This document shows, piece by piece, positions 2,926 to 50,800 of a stretch of DNA of 64,000 bases; position 1 is the stretch's first letter, and each line of letters opens with the position of its first letter. The notes under the pieces were generated by a model that saw nothing but the letters and a program-made list of their open reading frames with translations, searched no databases and was not told the origin of the DNA. The DNA is from Planctobacterium marinum (GTDB lineage Bacteria; Pseudomonadota; Gammaproteobacteria; Enterobacterales; Alteromonadaceae): contig NZ_AP027272.1 in NCBI RefSeq assembly GCF_036322805.1, positions 4,278,001-4,342,000 on the forward strand, in the 5' to 3' direction. Position numbers and translations under genes: made by a program.

Positions 2926-3128
2926 AGTTCGAAGTCCATACGCACCTTGCCCATGCGCGAGATAAGTCGAAAGTGAAGAATAAACCTGAAAGAGAGAGAA
3001 CAGGGACGTTATCTCAGGCAATGCTGGCACAGGGACGTGCCATCATTGTCGGTCTTTCAGGTTCTTCAATTGAGGCTTATGTTGTCTCGCGCTCTGGGCA
3101 AAAGGGGGTTTTAGGGGAGCTCCCCTAA
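2926..3128 (+). repeat. 203-bp dispersed repeat, copy A
   Basis: Aligns without gaps to 54276-54478 at about 84% identity by hand count. It ends in an 18-bp perfect palindrome (TTAGGGGA/GCTC/CCTAA core, 3111-3128). It lies between ppiC and a LysR gene. It can be read as the end of a 120-codon ORF, but the differences between copies fall at codon positions 1, 2 and 3 about 7, 13 and 8 times, which does not fit protein selection. A structured non-coding element is more likely. Confidence 0.75.
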
Positions 3129-43233: not shown

Positions 43234-45216
43234 TTAACCCACCGAGACCTTTGCAATCAACTGACTCTGTAATTGTTCCGGTCCGGGTAGTCCAACCAGA
43301 TACTCCATAGCCACCTCATCACAGGCGTGCTTTTTAGGACAGATATCACAGTCTTTGATGACCTTTTCAGGTAATCCCCCCATATCGGTCGTAACAAAAC
43401 CTAACTTGGCAAAAAAGTCTGGCACGCGAGTCAGTACAATAACCCGCTTTAATTCAATATGACGAGCCTGTTCCAGCAAATACTGGATCATGGCTTTACC
43501 TTGGCCTTTACCCTGAATATCCGATTGCACACCTACTGAGCGAATTTCAGCAAGCCCGGTTTGGTAAATATAAAGACAGGCACAGCCGATAACTTTGCCA
43601 TCCAGTTCAGCCACCACAAAGTTTTGGATGTCGTGCACTATGTTGTCGCGGCTTCGAGGTAAGGTTTCCCCCTTGTCAGACCAAAAACTAACAATATTCT
43701 CAATGGCATCTACGTCGGTCATTTTTGCCTGACGTACACTTAACGCAGCGGCTTTTTGGGCGTTAAGTCGCTGCTGAACATGGCGCAGGGCTATTTGAAT
43801 TTGTGGCTCAGAAGGACTGCCCATTACCTGGCTTGGGAAGATGTCAGCCAGATCTCGTCGGGAAGTGTCCAGTGCCAGTTCCACTTGCTCTCGGGATGTC
43901 CCACCTAAGACCTGGCGCTTATCAAGACAAGACTCAATAGTGAGGTATTGATAAACATCCTCACCAATTAATGAGGAATACACTTGTAGTTCAGCTAAGG
44001 TAAACTCTTCCAGCGCTTTGCCTTCGGAGATGGCTTTGAGTACCACTTCACCAACAATGTGGTGGGCTTCTCTGAAGGGTATTTGCTTGCTCACCAGGTA
44101 ATCAGCTAATTCTGTGGCATTGGCGTAGCCTTGCTGTGCTGCTGCCAAGGTAGCACTGCTATTCACCTTGATCCCTTCGGCCACTAATACACCCATTTGC
44201 AAACAAAGTTGCCAGCTATCCATGGCATCAAACAGACCTTCTTTGTCTTCCTGCATGTCTTTATTGTAGGCCAAAGGCAGCGCCTTCATGGTGGTTAGCA
44301 TACCGCTTAACGAACCGTACACCCGCCCCGTTTTGCCCCGGATCAGCTCCAGCGCATCCGGGTTTTTCTTTTGTGGCATCAATGAAGAGCCAGACGTCAC
44401 CTGATCGCTTAATTCAATAAACCCGGCCTCGCCACTATTGTAGAAGATAAGATCCTCGGCAAAGCGCGATAAGTGCATCATGCTAATGCTGGCACAGGAC
44501 ATCAGCTCAATGACGTGATCTCTGTCTGACACGGCATCTAAGCTATTCAAGGTGGGTCTGCGAAAACCCAGATCACTGGCCAGAGCGTGTCTATCTATAG
44601 GATAGGCGGTGCCAGCAAGCGCACCTGAACCCAGCGGAGAGGTGTCTGCTCGATAAAGGGCATCGTTGAGCCGCCCGATATCCCGGTCAAACATTTCCAC
44701 GTAGGCCAAACACCAATGACCAAAGGTGACTGGTTGTGCCCGTTGCAAATGGGTATATCCCGGAAGTACCGTTCCTTTCTCACGCTGCGCCAGATCCATC
44801 AACGCCTGCTGCAGACTCACAAGTGCCAGCGACAGCTCCTCACCTTTGGCTTTACACCAAAGCTTGAGATCTGTGGCCACCTGGTCGTTACGACTGCGAC
44901 CCGTATGTAACTTTTTACCTAAATCACCCACAGCCTGGATCAGCTTCTGCTCAACCCAACTATGGATATCTTCGGCATCCGAAGTGAGAATCTGTTGCGG
45001 GTCTTTCTCTACCTCTTCAGACAGAGTCAATAGCGCTGTTTGCAGTGCCTGCTGTTCATCGGAACTTAACACCCCCACCTGCTCCAGCGCTTTAGACCAG
45101 CAGATTGACCCTTGGATATCCTGCTCCACCAGACGATAGTCCACAGGCAAAGAGTCATTAAATTTTTTAAACAATTCACTAGGTTGTTGTTTGAACCTAC
45201 CGCCCCATAGCGCCAT
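43234..45216 (-). CDS. argH: Argininosuccinate lyase fused to N-acetylglutamate synthase (ArgH-ArgA)
   Basis: 660 residues versus ~460 for plain ArgH. Residues 1-465: lyase ('G-G-R-F-K', 'H-T-G-R-S-R-N-D-Q', '[12 protein letters not shown]' near 279) splitting argininosuccinate into arginine and fumarate. Residues about 490-630: GNAT acetyltransferase ('[15 protein letters not shown]') and a Cys cluster '[12 protein letters not shown]' common in short ArgA types. Such fusions are known in Alteromonadales/Vibrionales, where the GNAT part makes N-acetylglutamate. One protein thus covers first and last steps. Last gene of the operon, 19 bp after argG. Confidence 0.95.
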
Positions 45217-45235
45217 AACGTTTCCTCAATATGCC

Positions 45236-46447
45236 TTATTGCTTCGCCTGCATTGCCTTAATTCTGCTGGCAAGACTATATAATCGAATAAATCCTTCCG
45301 CATGCTTTTGATCGTATACATCATCCGCACCAAAGGTAGCAAAATCCTCTGAATAAAGACTATTCACCGAGGCTTTTTGGATCACAGTGGCGTTACCTTT
45401 GTAAAGTTTAATGACCACATCACCGGTAATTTGTTGCGCAAATGCCTGCGCTCCCGCCAACAATGCCTGACATAGTGGTGTGAACCAGCGACCGTCATAC
45501 AGTACATGAGAAAACTCAAGCCCTAAGCTCTCTCTGTGTTTTAACGAGTGTTTATCTAATACCAAAGTTTCGATGGCTTTATACCCTTTGTAAATAAGCG
45601 TGCCGCCGGGGGTTTCATAACAACCTCTGGATTTCATGCCCACCAGTCTATTCTCTACGATATCAATACGGCCAACACCGTGAGCCGCGGCGATACCATT
45701 GAGTTTTTCCAAAGCTTGCAAAGGCGACAGAAGTTCACCATTAACATGAGTGATCATGCCTTCCTGAAAACTCAATTGCACGGTTTCCGGCGCATCCGGC
45801 GCATCTTCCGGATCAACGGTCATGGTCCAAACTTGTTTAGAAGGCTCACACCAAGGGTCTTCTAATTCTCCGCCCTCGTGAGAAATATGCCAGGCGTTAG
45901 CGTCTCTACTGTAAATTTTTGTAGCAGAAGCGGTGGTTTTGATATTGCGCGTTGCCAGATAATCCAGCAGGTCTTCACGAGACACCATGTCCCACTCACG
46001 CCAAGGGGCAATCACTTTTAAATCGGGGGCAAGGGCAGCAAACGCACCTTCAAAACGCACTTGATCGTTGCCTTTACCGGTACAACCGTGACACAAGGCA
46101 TCCGCACCGACTTTACGGGCTACTTCCACTTGCGCTTTGGCGATAACTGGTCTGGCCATGGAGGTTCCCAGTAGGTATTCGCCCTCGTACACAGCCCCGG
46201 TTTGAATCGTTGGGAAAATATAGTCTTTAACAAACTCTTCCTTTAAATCAACGATGTAACACTCACTGGCACCCGAAGCGATGGCTTTTTCGTGCAGGCC
46301 TTCCAGCTCTTCTTCACCCTGTCCAACGTCTGCGGCAAAGGCCACCACGTCACAATCATAGTTTTCTTTGAGCCAAGGGATAATGGCAGACGTATCCAGG
46401 CCACCTGAATAAGCTAGTACTACTTTTTTAACGTTTTGCTCTGACAT
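45236..46447 (-). CDS. argG: Argininosuccinate synthase
   Basis: 403 residues from ATG 46445-46447 with AGGAG eight bases upstream; a longer open frame to 46552 overlaps argF and is not used. ATP-dependent joining of citrulline and aspartate. '[10 protein letters not shown]' (ATP loop), '[12 protein letters not shown]' and 'E-T-P-G-G-T-L' are diagnostic. The gap to argF is 10 bp. Confidence 0.97.
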
Positions 46448-46457
46448 CTCAGATCTC

Positions 46458-47372
46458 CTATTTATCTGCCAAAAGCCACAGTAATATGGCGTTTTGAGCG
46501 TGCATACGGTTTTCAGCTTGAAGCAGTAATAGTGACTGCTCACCATCAACAACTTCAGTGGTAATTTCTAAATCTCTGTGGGCAGGCTGACAATGCATCG
46601 CCCACTTAGCGCCAGCGCTGTGCATCAGCTCACTATTGAGCTGAAACGGCTGAAACTGGCTTTTAATCTGTTCCAGCGGTGTGCTATCTCCCATTGAGAT
46701 CCAAGTATCGGTATAAAGCACATCAACATCTTTCAGGCTGCTGACATCTTGAGTCAATACAATGTTACTGCCGCTGGTTTTCGCTTGATGTTGACACCAT
46801 TGGGTAATATCGTCATCTGGCTCATATCCTGATGGTGTCGCAATTGTTAAGTTTACGCCCAAGATAGCCCCTACAATCATCAAGGAATGACAGACATTAT
46901 TACCATCGCCTAGATAGGCCAGGTGTACCTGGGTTAAATCAGCGAACTTTTCTTTCAGTGCCAGATAATCAGCCAGCGCCTGGCAGGGATGGTAGAGATC
47001 GCACAGTGCGTTGATAACCGGCACATGAGTATTGTCCGCCAAAGTCGTTAAGGTACTGTGCTTGAATACCCGCGCGACGATCGCGTCTGCCCAACAGCCT
47101 AGATTACCCGCCATATCTTTACCCGACTCACGGCCAGCCAAGTTGTCACCCGCCATGTCCAGATATAAAAAGTGGCCACCTAGCTTATTAATACCAATGT
47201 CAAAGCTCACTCGAGTGCGCAGAGACGGTTTTTCAAACAATCCCACCACTGATTTACCAGCCAATGCCGAGCTGTATTTGCCCGGATAGGTTTTAATATC
47301 CAAAGCAGTATCCAGTAAGGTGTTGATATCTGCTTGTGTCCAATGGGTAAAAGTTAACAGGTCTTGTTTCAC
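46458..47372 (-). CDS. argF: Ornithine carbamoyltransferase
   Basis: 304 residues. Makes citrulline from ornithine and carbamoyl phosphate. Carbamoyl-phosphate motif 'P-S-L-R-T-R-V-S-F' near residue 49 and '[13 protein letters not shown]'. The ornithine-side loop reads 'M-H-C-Q-P-A-H', where the classical enzyme has HCLP, a Leu to Gln change in the catalytic Cys loop. Short form of the enzyme compared with E. coli (334). Overlaps argB by 4 bp. Confidence 0.93.
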
Positions 47373-48193
47373 AACGAGGTTCCTTTTGAGCTGTCAGCTT
47401 GAAGATTCGGCACGATACAGGTGCCACAGGACTGCCCCTTGAGCAGGGCGAGCATTTGTTCAGGTGTTTTCCAGGAACTGATAAACACCGATTTTTGGGT
47501 TTGATTGGCTGTCGCTAGTGCTGAATTCACTTTCACCACCATGCCGCCTTGAATAACATTTTGTTCAGTTAGACTGGATATTTGAGCACTGTCCAGCTGG
47601 CTGATTAACTGTTTATCCTGGTCTAATACCCCGGCGACATCGGATAACAGCAGCAGCTCTGCTGATAATAGCTGCGCTACCACCGCGGCGGCATCATCGG
47701 CATTTACGTTTAATAAGTTACCGACTTCGTCGCAGGCAATGGAAGCGACCACAGGTAAATAATCGCCGTTGCTTAGCATGGTGAGTAAGTTACTGTCGGC
47801 CGGGCTTACTTTGCCCACTGAACCAAACCGAGGCTCTGTAATTTGTGCCTTGCACATGCCGCCATCCAATAGAGTAAGCCCCACCGGGTTTAAACCTGCT
47901 ACTTTAGCCTGTGCACAGATTTCACTATTAACTGTGCCAGCCAATGCGCCGACGACATAGGGAATATGAGCTTTCGGGGTAACCCGCACACCATCAATTT
48001 TTTCGCTGCTAAAGTCCAAAGCCTCCAATAAGGCTTGTGTGGTGTCACCACCACCATGCACCAGCACCACTGCATAGCGCGTTTGCAATTGCTGCAACAC
48101 TTGCAGCACTGATTGCAGAGCCGCGCCATCTTTTAGAAGTGCGCCTCCGACTTTCGCCACCAACCAGGATTTACCGATAGTATTCGCCATCAT
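47369..48193 (-). CDS. argB: Acetylglutamate kinase
   Basis: 274 residues from the ATG whose A is the last base of the argC stop (TGATG overlap); GGAG precedes it. Phosphorylates N-acetylglutamate. 'V-A-K-V-G-G-A-L-L', 'V-L-V-H-G-G-G' and 'N-V-N-A-D-D-A-A' are amino-acid-kinase motifs. It lacks the long N-terminal helix of arginine-inhibited hexameric forms, so it is probably the E. coli-like dimeric type (inference). Confidence 0.95.
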   Translation of the reverse strand: MMANTIGKSWLVAKVGGALLKDGAALQSVLQVLQQLQTRYAVVLVHGGGDTTQALLEALDFSSEKIDGVRVTPKAHIPYVVGALAGTVNSEICAQAKVAGLNPVGLTLLDGGMCKAQITEPRFGSVGKVSPADSNLLTMLSNGDYLPVVASIACDEVGNLLNVNADDAAAVVAQLLSAELLLLSDVAGVLDQDKQLISQLDSAQISSLTEQNVIQGGMVVKVNSALATANQTQKSVFISSWKTPEQMLALLKGQSCGTCIVPNLQADSSKGTSL

Positions 48194-49221
48194 CAGCTCC
48201 CCAGTAAACCTGTGGTATCGGGTAAGCCCAGCATCAGATTTGCACATTGCATCGCTTGAGACGCGGCCCCTTTAAGTAAATTGTCGATGGCACTGCTGAC
48301 CACAATATAATGATTTTGCTCAGAATATTGCCAATGCAAATGGCATTTAGGGGAATGCACCACCTGATCCAATTTCGGCCACTGCTGCACCAGATTGACA
48401 AGCTCAGTACCATCGTAAGCACTGTGAAAAGCGTTATCGATAGCCTGTTGGCTGGCCTCAGCGGTGAGCTTTAAGGTAATAGTTGCCAAAATACCCCGTT
48501 TAAAATTGCCCAGGTGCGGGTTGAAAATCACCTGGTTATCCAAATAACTGGCGATTTCGGGTTGATGACGATGGCTCAGCACGCCGTAAGCTTGCAAACT
48601 GACTTCACACAGGCTGTTGGTCATGGTGGCTTTTCTACCTGCACCACTTACACCTGATGTGGCATTGATCACAGGTAAAACCGATGAATCAATCAAACCG
48701 GCTGCCTGTAGGGGTTTTAAAGCCAACAATGAAGCCGTTGGATAACAACCGGGAACAGCGATGAGTTGTGCTTGTTTAATTTCATCGGCATACCATTCTG
48801 CCAGGCCATAAACAGCACCGTCTAATAAGCTTTGTTGGTTATGGGCAAAGCCATAATTTTGCGCAAAAACTTGGGTCTCTTTTAATCTAAAGGCGCCAGA
48901 TAAATCCAGCACTTTTGCGCCATATTGTAATAATTTAGGACAAATATCGTGGCTGAACTCATGGGGAGTGGCCAGAAAGATAATGTCGCTATTTTTCGCT
49001 ACCTGCTCCAACTGCTCTGCTGTGAGCGCAGTGAGTTTCAGTTCATCACTGGTAAACGGTGTTTGATAAAAACGATTGTCCAGTTGCCACAAACCTTTAT
49101 CGGCATCCTGACTGTGCTCGGAAACATAAACACCCTGCAATTGCATAACTGGATGCTTGTCCACCAGCAATGCTAATTCCATACCTGTATACCCACTGGC
49201 GCCCAACAATGACACATTCAT
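48193..49221 (-). CDS. argC: N-acetyl-gamma-glutamyl-phosphate reductase
   Basis: 342 residues. NADPH-dependent reduction of acetylglutamyl phosphate to the semialdehyde. 'L-G-A-S-G-Y-T-G-M-E-L' (dinucleotide loop), 'F-L-A-T-P-H-E-F-S', 'V-P-G-C-Y-P-T-A' with the catalytic Cys, and 'S-G-V-S-G-A-G-R-K'. First structural gene of argC-B-F-G-H(A). Upstream lies a leader ORF and a terminator, described separately. Confidence 0.96.
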   Translation of the reverse strand: MNVSLLGASGYTGMELALLVDKHPVMQLQGVYVSEHSQDADKGLWQLDNRFYQTPFTSDELKLTALTAEQLEQVAKNSDIIFLATPHEFSHDICPKLLQYGAKVLDLSGAFRLKETQVFAQNYGFAHNQQSLLDGAVYGLAEWYADEIKQAQLIAVPGCYPTASLLALKPLQAAGLIDSSVLPVINATSGVSGAGRKATMTNSLCEVSLQAYGVLSHRHQPEIASYLDNQVIFNPHLGNFKRGILATITLKLTAEASQQAIDNAFHSAYDGTELVNLVQQWPKLDQVVHSPKCHLHWQYSEQNHYIVVSSAIDNLLKGAASQAMQCANLMLGLPDTTGLLGS

Positions 49222-49258
49222 TATGTTTTTCTCTTTTTAAAGATTAATAAGGATAGAT

Positions 49259-49296
49259 AAAAAAAATGAGTGGTTGTTGCAGAGCAAGCAACCACT
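49259..49296 (-). terminator. Leader terminator (attenuator) upstream of argC
   Basis: On the minus strand AGTGGTTG-C-TTGC, TCT, GCAA-CAACCACT forms an 8-bp stem extended by 4 bp across a single bulged C, then CA and eight T. It lies inside the argC 5' leader, 38 bp before the start codon and 5 bases after the stop of a 25-codon ORF ending Arg-Arg. A terminator here would abort the arg operon transcript unless overridden. Confidence 0.8.
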
Positions 49297-49301
49297 ATGT
49301 T

Positions 49302-49379
49302 CTATCGTCGCAAAATGAAGTATGCGACCAGAGTAATGGCAGGGAGTAAATTGGTTAAAGGTTTCAGTAAAACTTTCAT
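49302..49379 (-). CDS. Candidate arginine leader peptide of the argC operon
   Basis: ATG at 49377-49379, TAG at 49302-49304, 25 codons. N-terminus M-K-V-L-L-K-P, hydrophobic middle, and the last five residues F-I-L-R-R encoded ...TTG CGA CGA TAG. Both Arg codons are CGA. The attenuator hairpin begins 5 bases after the stop, so a ribosome held on the Arg codons would cover its 5' arm. The upstream GGA is only one base from the ATG, a weak ribosome site, which is the main doubt. The first five upstream codons hold a stop, so no longer start exists in frame. It is not a known family; the role is inference. Confidence 0.4.
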   Translation of the reverse strand: MKVLLKPLTNLLPAITLVAYFILRR

Positions 49380-49459
49380 GTCCGTTAAAAAATCAAATTC
49401 GGGGTCAGCTTCTTGTTAAAGGAGAATGTGCCACACAAAATATATTTATGCAACATTTT

Positions 49460-49473
49460 TGCATTTTTATTTA
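49460..49473. promoter_or_regulatory. Possible ArgR box of the arg operon
   Basis: TGCATTTTTATTTA matches the ArgR half-pair pattern TGMAT-N4-ATTCA with one mismatch. It lies about 240 bp upstream of argC, in the AT-rich promoter zone and upstream of the leader ORF, overlapping a plausible leftward -10 region (TAAATA). A second box at the standard 21-bp centre distance is not seen. Confidence 0.35.
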
Positions 49474-49576
49474 TTTTAAATTTTTATTACAAACGGGCAA
49501 AAATTCATAAACCGCACTTTACATTATAATTATCAGTAGCTTACATAAAAAACACCTTGTTTCAACAAATTGCATA

Positions 49577-50800
49577 ATGGTTTATTACCCATTCATGAAA
49601 AATAAGGAGTTTAAGCAGAACAAGACATTTGTACGATTAAGCGCTAGGGTAATTCTACATTTGGATTCATCTACATCTGTACTTGTGAAAATTACCTACT
49701 TTAGCCAAACGCTTCTGCTTGTATTAACAATAATCCTATCTGTTCATGCCCTCAGTGAACCATTACCCGATTTACCTGAGCCTGTATCCAACAATGCAGT
49801 GGTGACAGTCGACACCGAGTCAGGCAGCTGGTTTATCACTTTTATGGGCCTGGCTGAAGGTAAGGATTGGCAGGATGTGCACAATAAAGTGTGGGCGCTC
49901 AAATCTGGCGATACTCGTTGGCAGGAAAAAACGCCCGTGCCCGCCACATTGCCATTAAAAGGCCGCCTGGCCAGTATCGCTGTAGCGCTTAATGGTAAGG
50001 CCTGGCTATTCGGTGGCTACACAGTTGCCGAAGATCACAGCGAAATCTCCAGTCCCGACAACTACAGCTACGATGTACTCACTGATAACTACACCAAACT
50101 GAAAGACATGCCGGTGCCTGTGGATGATGCCGTCGCGGTTACCTATCAAAATCGCTACATTTATCTTATTAGTGGCTGGCACAATGACGGCAACGTGAAT
50201 CTGGTGCAGATTTACGACACCAAAACCGATAGTTGGCAACAAGGTTCTCCTTATCCGGGTGCGCCGGTATTTGGTCATGCAGGTGGCATATTGGATGATC
50301 AAATATTGGTTTGCGATGGAGTCAAAGTAGTGCCGCAGCGCGCTAAAAGAAGAACCTTTGCCCCAGAATCGGCTTGTTACAAAGGTATCATCAATCCAAG
50401 TCACATCAACAAGATTGACTGGCAAATTGTCGCTCACCCAACCGGAAAGTCTCGCTATCGCATGGCAGCGAAAGGAGTTAAAACCCCATCCTTGGAAGGT
50501 GTGCTGTTTATCGGCGGCAGCGATAACCCCTACAACTACAATGGTGTGGGCTATAACGGCGAACCATCCGAACCTGATGAAATGATCTGGTTTTATCATT
50601 TCGATGAAAAACGTTGGCAACTGCTAGCCAACGACGACCCCACAATGGATCACCGTGGACTACTGGAATATGAAGCAGGCTTCTACATCATTGCGGGTAT
50701 GGGGAAAAACCAACAGGTACTTAATCGAATAACTCACTTTAATAAGCAGCAATTGCTGACTACTATTAGTGAAAACAAAAATAACTTGGGACAAGAATAA
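49577..50800 (+). CDS. Periplasmic Kelch-repeat protein (NanM/mutarotase-like)
   Basis: 407 codons as drawn, but a GTG at 49685 gives a much better start: V-K-I-T-Y-F then a hydrophobic run ending Val-His-Ala-Leu-Ser, a typical signal peptide. The mature part has five or six Kelch blades ('G-K-A-W-L-F-G-G-Y', 'R-Y-I-Y-L-I-S-G-W', 'D-S-W-Q-Q-G-S-P', 'F-Y-I-I-A-G-M-G') like the beta-propeller of N-acetylneuraminate epimerase. A sugar epimerase or binding role is inference. It is followed 5 bp later by a diguanylate cyclase, so it may be a sensor partner instead. Confidence 0.75.
   Translation: MVYYPFMKNKEFKQNKTFVRLSARVILHLDSSTSVLVKITYFSQTLLLVLTIILSVHALSEPLPDLPEPVSNNAVVTVDTESGSWFITFMGLAEGKDWQDVHNKVWALKSGDTRWQEKTPVPATLPLKGRLASIAVALNGKAWLFGGYTVAEDHSEISSPDNYSYDVLTDNYTKLKDMPVPVDDAVAVTYQNRYIYLISGWHNDGNVNLVQIYDTKTDSWQQGSPYPGAPVFGHAGGILDDQILVCDGVKVVPQRAKRRTFAPESACYKGIINPSHINKIDWQIVAHPTGKSRYRMAAKGVKTPSLEGVLFIGGSDNPYNYNGVGYNGEPSEPDEMIWFYHFDEKRWQLLANDDPTMDHRGLLEYEAGFYIIAGMGKNQQVLNRITHFNKQQLLTTISENKNNLGQE

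Follow-up and report, generated by a model that had tools for sequence, protein, structure and literature searches.

The window, that is, the whole 64,000-nucleotide stretch of Planctobacterium marinum DNA that was analysed, carries an arginine biosynthesis operon on its minus strand. The first gene of the controlled operon, argC (48193-49221), was recognized by its open reading frame (ORF) and Pfam semialdehyde dehydrogenase domains. The remainder of the operon (43234-48247, minus strand) consists of argB, argF, argG and argH in that order, identified by Pfam matches to AA_kinase, OTCace, argininosuccinate synthase and Lyase_1/ASL_C2 plus Acetyltransf_1. The argH gene (43234-45216, minus strand), which carries a C-terminal GNAT domain, is a probable fusion of ArgH with ArgA (acetylglutamate synthase). 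The arg leader occupies the stretch from 49221 to 49577, where a divergent gene of the kelch type begins (49577-50800, plus strand). Since this upstream gene is divergent, a terminator before argC is needed by no other transcript. The kelch-repeat gene itself matched N-acetylneuraminate epimerase weakly and below the cutoff.

Arginine biosynthesis in gammaproteobacteria is a textbook example of repressor control, and two ArgR-box-like 14-mers, TAAATAAAAATGCA (49473-49460) and TGCATAAATATATT (49452-49439), lie upstream on the minus strand (49439-49473) with their starts 21 bp apart. Against TGAATWWWWATTCA, which we take to be the ArgR-box consensus, they score 12/14 and 10/14, respectively. Other AT-rich 14-mers in the vicinity score as high as TGCATAAATATATT, and at -269 there is an 11/14 site, so the second ArgR-like box rests on its spacing. 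Both 14-mers are kept in the nearest relative. Rfam models, that for the T-box included, gave no match at gathering thresholds in the arg leader of the window, nor was anything matched at eight relatives' loci; a permissive search of 49180-49560 returned just two unrelated below-gathering matches and no T-box. The sole gathering-level Rfam match in the window is a TwoAYGGAY RNA at 2948-3097 (plus strand, 48.3 bits).

Within the leader, a 25-codon ORF (49302-49379, minus strand) encodes MKVLLKPLTNLLPAITLVAYFILRR and ends TTG CGA CGA TAG, the two arginine codons occupying 49310-49308 and 49307-49305 (49305-49310 overall, minus strand). Beginning 5 nt past the stop is a terminator hairpin of 12 pairs with one bulge (49269-49296, minus strand; -13.8 kcal/mol), followed after CA by a tract of eight T (49259-49266, minus strand). 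The first-pass annotation had described this arrangement and had proposed an arginine-codon attenuator on that basis; the observation was confirmed. The leader ORF also contains CTCCCTGCC (49338-49346, minus strand), an instance of a YUCCCUG motif common to many relatives, which by an uncontrolled count lies no more than 80 nt upstream of CGACGA in 48 CGACGA-bearing regions. CGACGATAR followed by T7 within 20-50 nt occurs once in the 4.87-Mb genome, at the argC leader (reversed control pattern: 0), and by this pattern there is no second copy of the arrangement elsewhere in the genome.

The comparison with relatives covered three samples of argC upstream regions. The family sample comprised 120 regions (49 genera) of 384 family genomes with an argC match, favouring closer ArgC and taking in 30 further genomes; the second comprised 65 regions from 20 other families of the order, out of 120 matching genomes, one same-family region of 66 having been excluded; and the third comprised 29 loci outside the order from 85 matching genomes, of which 26 were scored and three were too short. 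A short ORF with Arg-Arg near its end was found upstream of argC in 67 of the 120 family regions and 26 of the 65 regions from other families, against means of 12.35 and 8.25 in 20 shuffles. Antisense counts of such ORFs (26/120 and 11/65) were also above the shuffles, an excess that is put down to the complement of CGACGA itself; counts of CGA-CGA are free of this effect. Short ORFs with CGA-CGA in frame close to their end occurred in 63/120 family regions (50 shuffles: mean 0.38, maximum 3) and in 16/65 from the other families (mean 0.28, maximum 1). RR was the most enriched of the 20 doublets, with z = 15.3 in the family and 6.4 elsewhere, the next in the family being NN (5.2) and DD (3.2).

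Long flanks were taken for 84 loci. In 40 of these, an ORF of no more than 60 codons, running from ATG to stop and carrying CGA-CGA close to its end, lies upstream of argC; nine matched control windows gave 0-2. Arg-Arg short ORFs precede argC in 27 of the 49 sampled family genera, a distribution far wider than first noted, and no RR leader was found in the regions taken from the other 22. CGACGA was present in 25/49 family genera and 7/20 other families, these genomes being related and not independent samples, and in none of the 26 regions scored outside the order. The poor ribosome site discussed below and the commonness of short ORFs in the region would fit a chance ORF beside an ordinary terminator; set against these comparative counts, the control windows, the frame test that follows and the genome-wide uniqueness of the pattern, such a coincidence is extremely improbable.

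Frame statistics favour a coding leader. An ATG in frame with CGACGA and without an intervening stop was found in 84 of 86 CGACGA regions, as opposed to 8 and 3 for the two other frames; a stop came within five codons in 69 of the 86, as opposed to 13 and 20, and directly after CGACGA in 40. Of the 71 RR pairs in family leaders, 61 are CGA-CGA, whereas CGA contributes 37 of 723 Arg codons in the sampled argC genes. The codon is less rare in nine ORFs of the window (27/150). We infer that the leaders are under selection for a pair of slow Arg codons. In the Salmonella his leader, Arg-Arg pairs with CGA de-attenuate strongly, as stated in the available part of that study (PMC4046918), and a conserved Arg-codon attenuator with this preference would provide a natural test of the theory by which attenuators should use whichever synonymous codon responds most strongly to starvation (PMC1183508). 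A possible small hairpin, GTCGCA...TGCGAC, is predicted at 49307-49328 (minus strand) with the first CGA in its 3' arm; its role in the leader is doubtful, since among the 86 sequences CGACGA falls in hairpins no more often than in shuffled versions. An Arg-codon hairpin as the cause of CGACGA was rejected (mean pairing 0.58 vs 0.60 in shuffled versions of the 86 sequences). Shine-Dalgarno matches were no longer than 3 nt in 60 of 87 leaders, a count drawn from a wider window than the 86 of the frame test, and three more had no ATG in the stretch inspected. The earlier reservation about a poor leader ribosome site was therefore justified, for the window and for most relatives.

The first-pass annotation had proposed to judge the attenuator by whether relatives conserve the ORF, its Arg codons and the terminator, and in the nearest relative the ORF, both Arg codons and the terminator are indeed conserved. 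The leader ORF of Planctobacterium marinum K7 (G001/L002) is equal in length to that of the window and likewise ends CGA CGA TAG. Across the 26 leader codons, the window and the nearest relative have 11 identical, 2 synonymous and 13 replaced, with the end kept. In a third genome of the genus (G002) the leader peptide is MTRHIFHNSISSLDRPLSSRRR, and in Alteromonadaceae bacterium XY-R5 (L003) it ends in SLPCYAPIAVRRRY.

A ligand-sensing arrest peptide of the TnaC or SpeFL sort, arresting at the stop, had been offered as an alternative. It would accord with the Arg residue directly before the stop, with the observation that the stop position most disturbs the window terminator in the model described below, and with a peptide body that is conserved within clades (for example SLPSFASMLYRR in g5 and SLPCY..RR in g10). 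Conservation is confined to clades, which weakens the proposal: across clades only the Arg residues recur, some leaders being as short as MSTTIRR and MHTLKLRR, and half of the codons were replaced between the window and its nearest relative while the end was kept. Peptide sensing also leaves the fixed CGA choice unexplained, and the leader is without a Pfam match. The register of UCCC relative to the Arg codons differs between g25/g3 and g10, pointing to constraint on the RNA and not on the peptide, and the presence of Arg-Arg in all architectures described below argues against a sequence-specific arrest peptide. We consider this alternative quite unlikely, though an arrest peculiar to single clades would be compatible with the bodies conserved inside them.

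The terminator stem is kept in both G001 and G002, one of its pairs being U-A, U-G or C-G depending on which of the three Planctobacterium genomes is considered. A terminator of -7 kcal/mol or stronger between the Arg codons and argC was called in 41 of 80 leaders; mononucleotide shuffles gave 7, 6 and 3 of 80. The survey includes CGACGC and CGACGT leaders as well as G440_f27, where the terminator may be that of the upstream gene. The other 39 of the 80 had no terminator at this threshold, with a 50-base limit that under-calls some and misses the long hairpins of g25. Arg-Arg leaders without a strong terminator call (in g8, g9, g28, g31, g48, g15 and g44) could suggest that the leader peptide acts mainly via Rho or mRNA stability, the hairpin being incidental, as the speF leader does in Salmonella according to the available part of the report (PMC6386406). 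Such a mode of action would not account for a terminator conserved with pairing-preserving changes in the window and two congeners, nor for the enrichment of strong terminators, and is highly improbable here.

The argC leader is thus best regarded, with good probability, as a transcription attenuator of the ribosome-mediated kind, which would sense charged tRNA-Arg and govern argCBFGH(A) downstream of an ArgR-type operator. A short ORF with consecutive end-product codons stands upstream of a biosynthetic operon, an intrinsic terminator separates it from the first gene (in the window, G001 and G002), and both codons and terminator are conserved in relatives; the arginine attenuator originally proposed is well supported by this comparison of sequences. 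What can be read directly from the DNA is the ORF with its codons, the terminator, the conservation of all of these and their association with argC; from them we infer translation, termination and the direction of control. With arginine plentiful, the ribosome would pass CGA CGA, stop at UAG and leave; the hairpin (49296-49269) would then form and RNA polymerase would halt in the T tract (49266-49259). When tRNA-Arg charging falls, the ribosome would linger at the slow CGA-CGA pair, next to the hairpin; termination would then fail and argC would be transcribed.

The weakest link in this attenuation scheme is the step at which a ribosome dwelling on CGA-CGA may hinder completion of the hairpin while the polymerase crosses the T tract. 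Least certain of all is the suggestion that, in the window leader, the stalled ribosome crowds or covers the base of the hairpin and no separate antiterminator takes part. The first-pass annotation had expected a ribosome on either Arg codon, or at the stop, to cover the 5' arm of the terminator. Assuming a +15 footprint, this holds only with the stop in the A site, where 4 nt of the stem are covered; from the second CGA the ribosome reaches 49296, and from the first its edge at 49299 falls 2 nt short of the stem, so that occlusion from either Arg codon is not supported. In the model of the window, placing the first CGA in the A site leaves the terminator intact, the second CGA lowers the base pairs to 0.75, and with the stop the base falls to 0.00 and the upper part to 0.31. 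In G001 the second CGA has no effect and the base is weakened to 0.25 by the stop position alone, and in G002 the terminator is unaffected at every ribosome position. Plain occlusion is accordingly marginal in Planctobacterium. A ribosome parked at the stop would, in the model, favour read-through, the wrong direction if release is slow.

Separate antiterminators were sought as well. The pairing of AACCA with TGGTT suggested at the outset is not kept in the nearest relative and leaves the terminator undisturbed in the model. A general antiterminator formed between the post-stop segment and the terminator 5' arm was rejected (0.319 vs 0.316 shuffled, 50 leaders). Part of g5 has a classical-looking antiterminator in which GAGGUCUG, from the ribosome edge onward, pairs with CAGACCUU in the terminator 5' arm; it is lost with the ribosome at the stop, divergent g5 members do not have it, and its shuffle ranks are only 0.07-0.29. 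Occlusion is direct in g47 and f16, whose terminators use the Arg codons as their own 5' arm.

The leader resembles the trp, his, leu, ilv, thr and phe attenuators of gammaproteobacteria, in which a short ORF with end-product codons and an intrinsic terminator likewise precede a biosynthetic operon. It differs from these in using arginine, in having two or three regulatory codons that are fixed as CGA, in the very close placement of stop and terminator and, in the window, in having no separate antiterminator that could be found; for leuA, an attenuator with an anti-antiterminator is described in the available part of one report (PMC2659441). The leader of speF (orf34/SpeFL) in Salmonella and E. 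coli also relays arginine availability through two consecutive Arg codons, and its Salmonella form is the nearest known parallel for arginine. These are internal in a conserved HIRRT core, which the window leader does not have. Nor does the latter match SpeFL/orf34 (DUF2618), the leader peptide having no Pfam match at E 0.001 and the downstream gene being argC, not speF. The Salmonella speF leader, as far as the available part of its description goes, controls ornithine decarboxylase via Rho, RNase G and masking of the ribosome site, and kept its regulation when its Arg codons were swapped for CGACGA (PMC6386406).

Arginine T-boxes also control arginine genes at the RNA level by tRNA charging, but they bind tRNA directly; T-boxes are named as RNA-level control of arginine genes in the accessible text of a comparative paper (PMC1262725). 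The ArgR regulon of gammaproteobacteria covers the same genes, and ArgR-box-like sites precede the argC leader, but ArgR acts at initiation. In its available part, a proteobacterial regulon study places the arg genes under ArgR and does not mention an arg attenuator (PMC5343134). A screen for cis-acting RNAs in Shewanella does not name argC in its main text, and no arginine attenuator upstream of argC was found in the openly licensed literature. We read the leader as a known kind of attenuator with a new amino acid, arginine, working alongside ArgR. An Arg-codon attenuator conserved downstream of ArgR-type sites would extend to arginine the set of amino acids that these bacteria sense via ribosome stalling, and would show a repressor and an attenuator stacked on one operon, as in trp.

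Several architectures are distinguished among the relatives. In the window type, the terminator directly follows the leader stop. In a large clade (g3, g5, g10, g12, g16, g17, g25, g37 and g43), the leaders repeatedly combine the motif UCUCCCUG with a helix GCUAYGC:GCRUAGC and a neighbouring terminator; the alignment of the motif lacks 21 rows and has at least two mis-anchored (G211 and G120). The helix spans the Arg codons and lies directly before the terminator (for example in L010, L019, L024 and L080, and in g5, g10, g25 and g37). It hardly varies within aligned subclades, where one compensatory pair was seen (g10 group) against several in the terminators; G328_g25 and G315_g5 are absent from this alignment and G167_g25 is shortened. 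With a ribosome on the first CGA, the modelled mean probability of the helix drops from 0.82 to 0.10 over 40 sequences, four rows having been skipped and three g51 or g25 members having no helix even when free of ribosomes.

This conservation of UCUCCCUG and the helix beside the terminator could indicate that the RNA itself is the sensor, as an arginine or ornithine riboswitch or a protein site, with the ORF secondary. All four g7 genomes (L093, L097, L099 and L108), moreover, retain the CUCCCUG motif and a hairpin downstream of it before argC without CGA-CGA. The helix is absent from the window, however, no Rfam family was matched, and the coding constraint is evident from the frame and codon statistics, so that an RNA sensor is very unlikely as an explanation of the leader. 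A broader proposal retains the attenuator: the order would possess a family of arginine attenuators built on the fixed CGA-CGA pair and rebuilt many times around different hairpins, one large clade having a composite sensor whose RNA module (UCUCCCUG with the helix beside the terminator) reads a second signal, be it arginine, ornithine or a protein, besides tRNA-Arg charging. We put this forward as speculative and unlikely.

A third set of relatives (g8, g9, g14, g28, g31 and g48) has minimal peptides of the kind cited above, and a strong terminator was called within it in g14 only. In L036, L038, L041, L043 and L118 (g46, g48, g31, g9 and g38), a common stretch resembling GTGTAAATAACC...AATAAGGCTAC was observed immediately before the minimal leader peptides or before the first gene.
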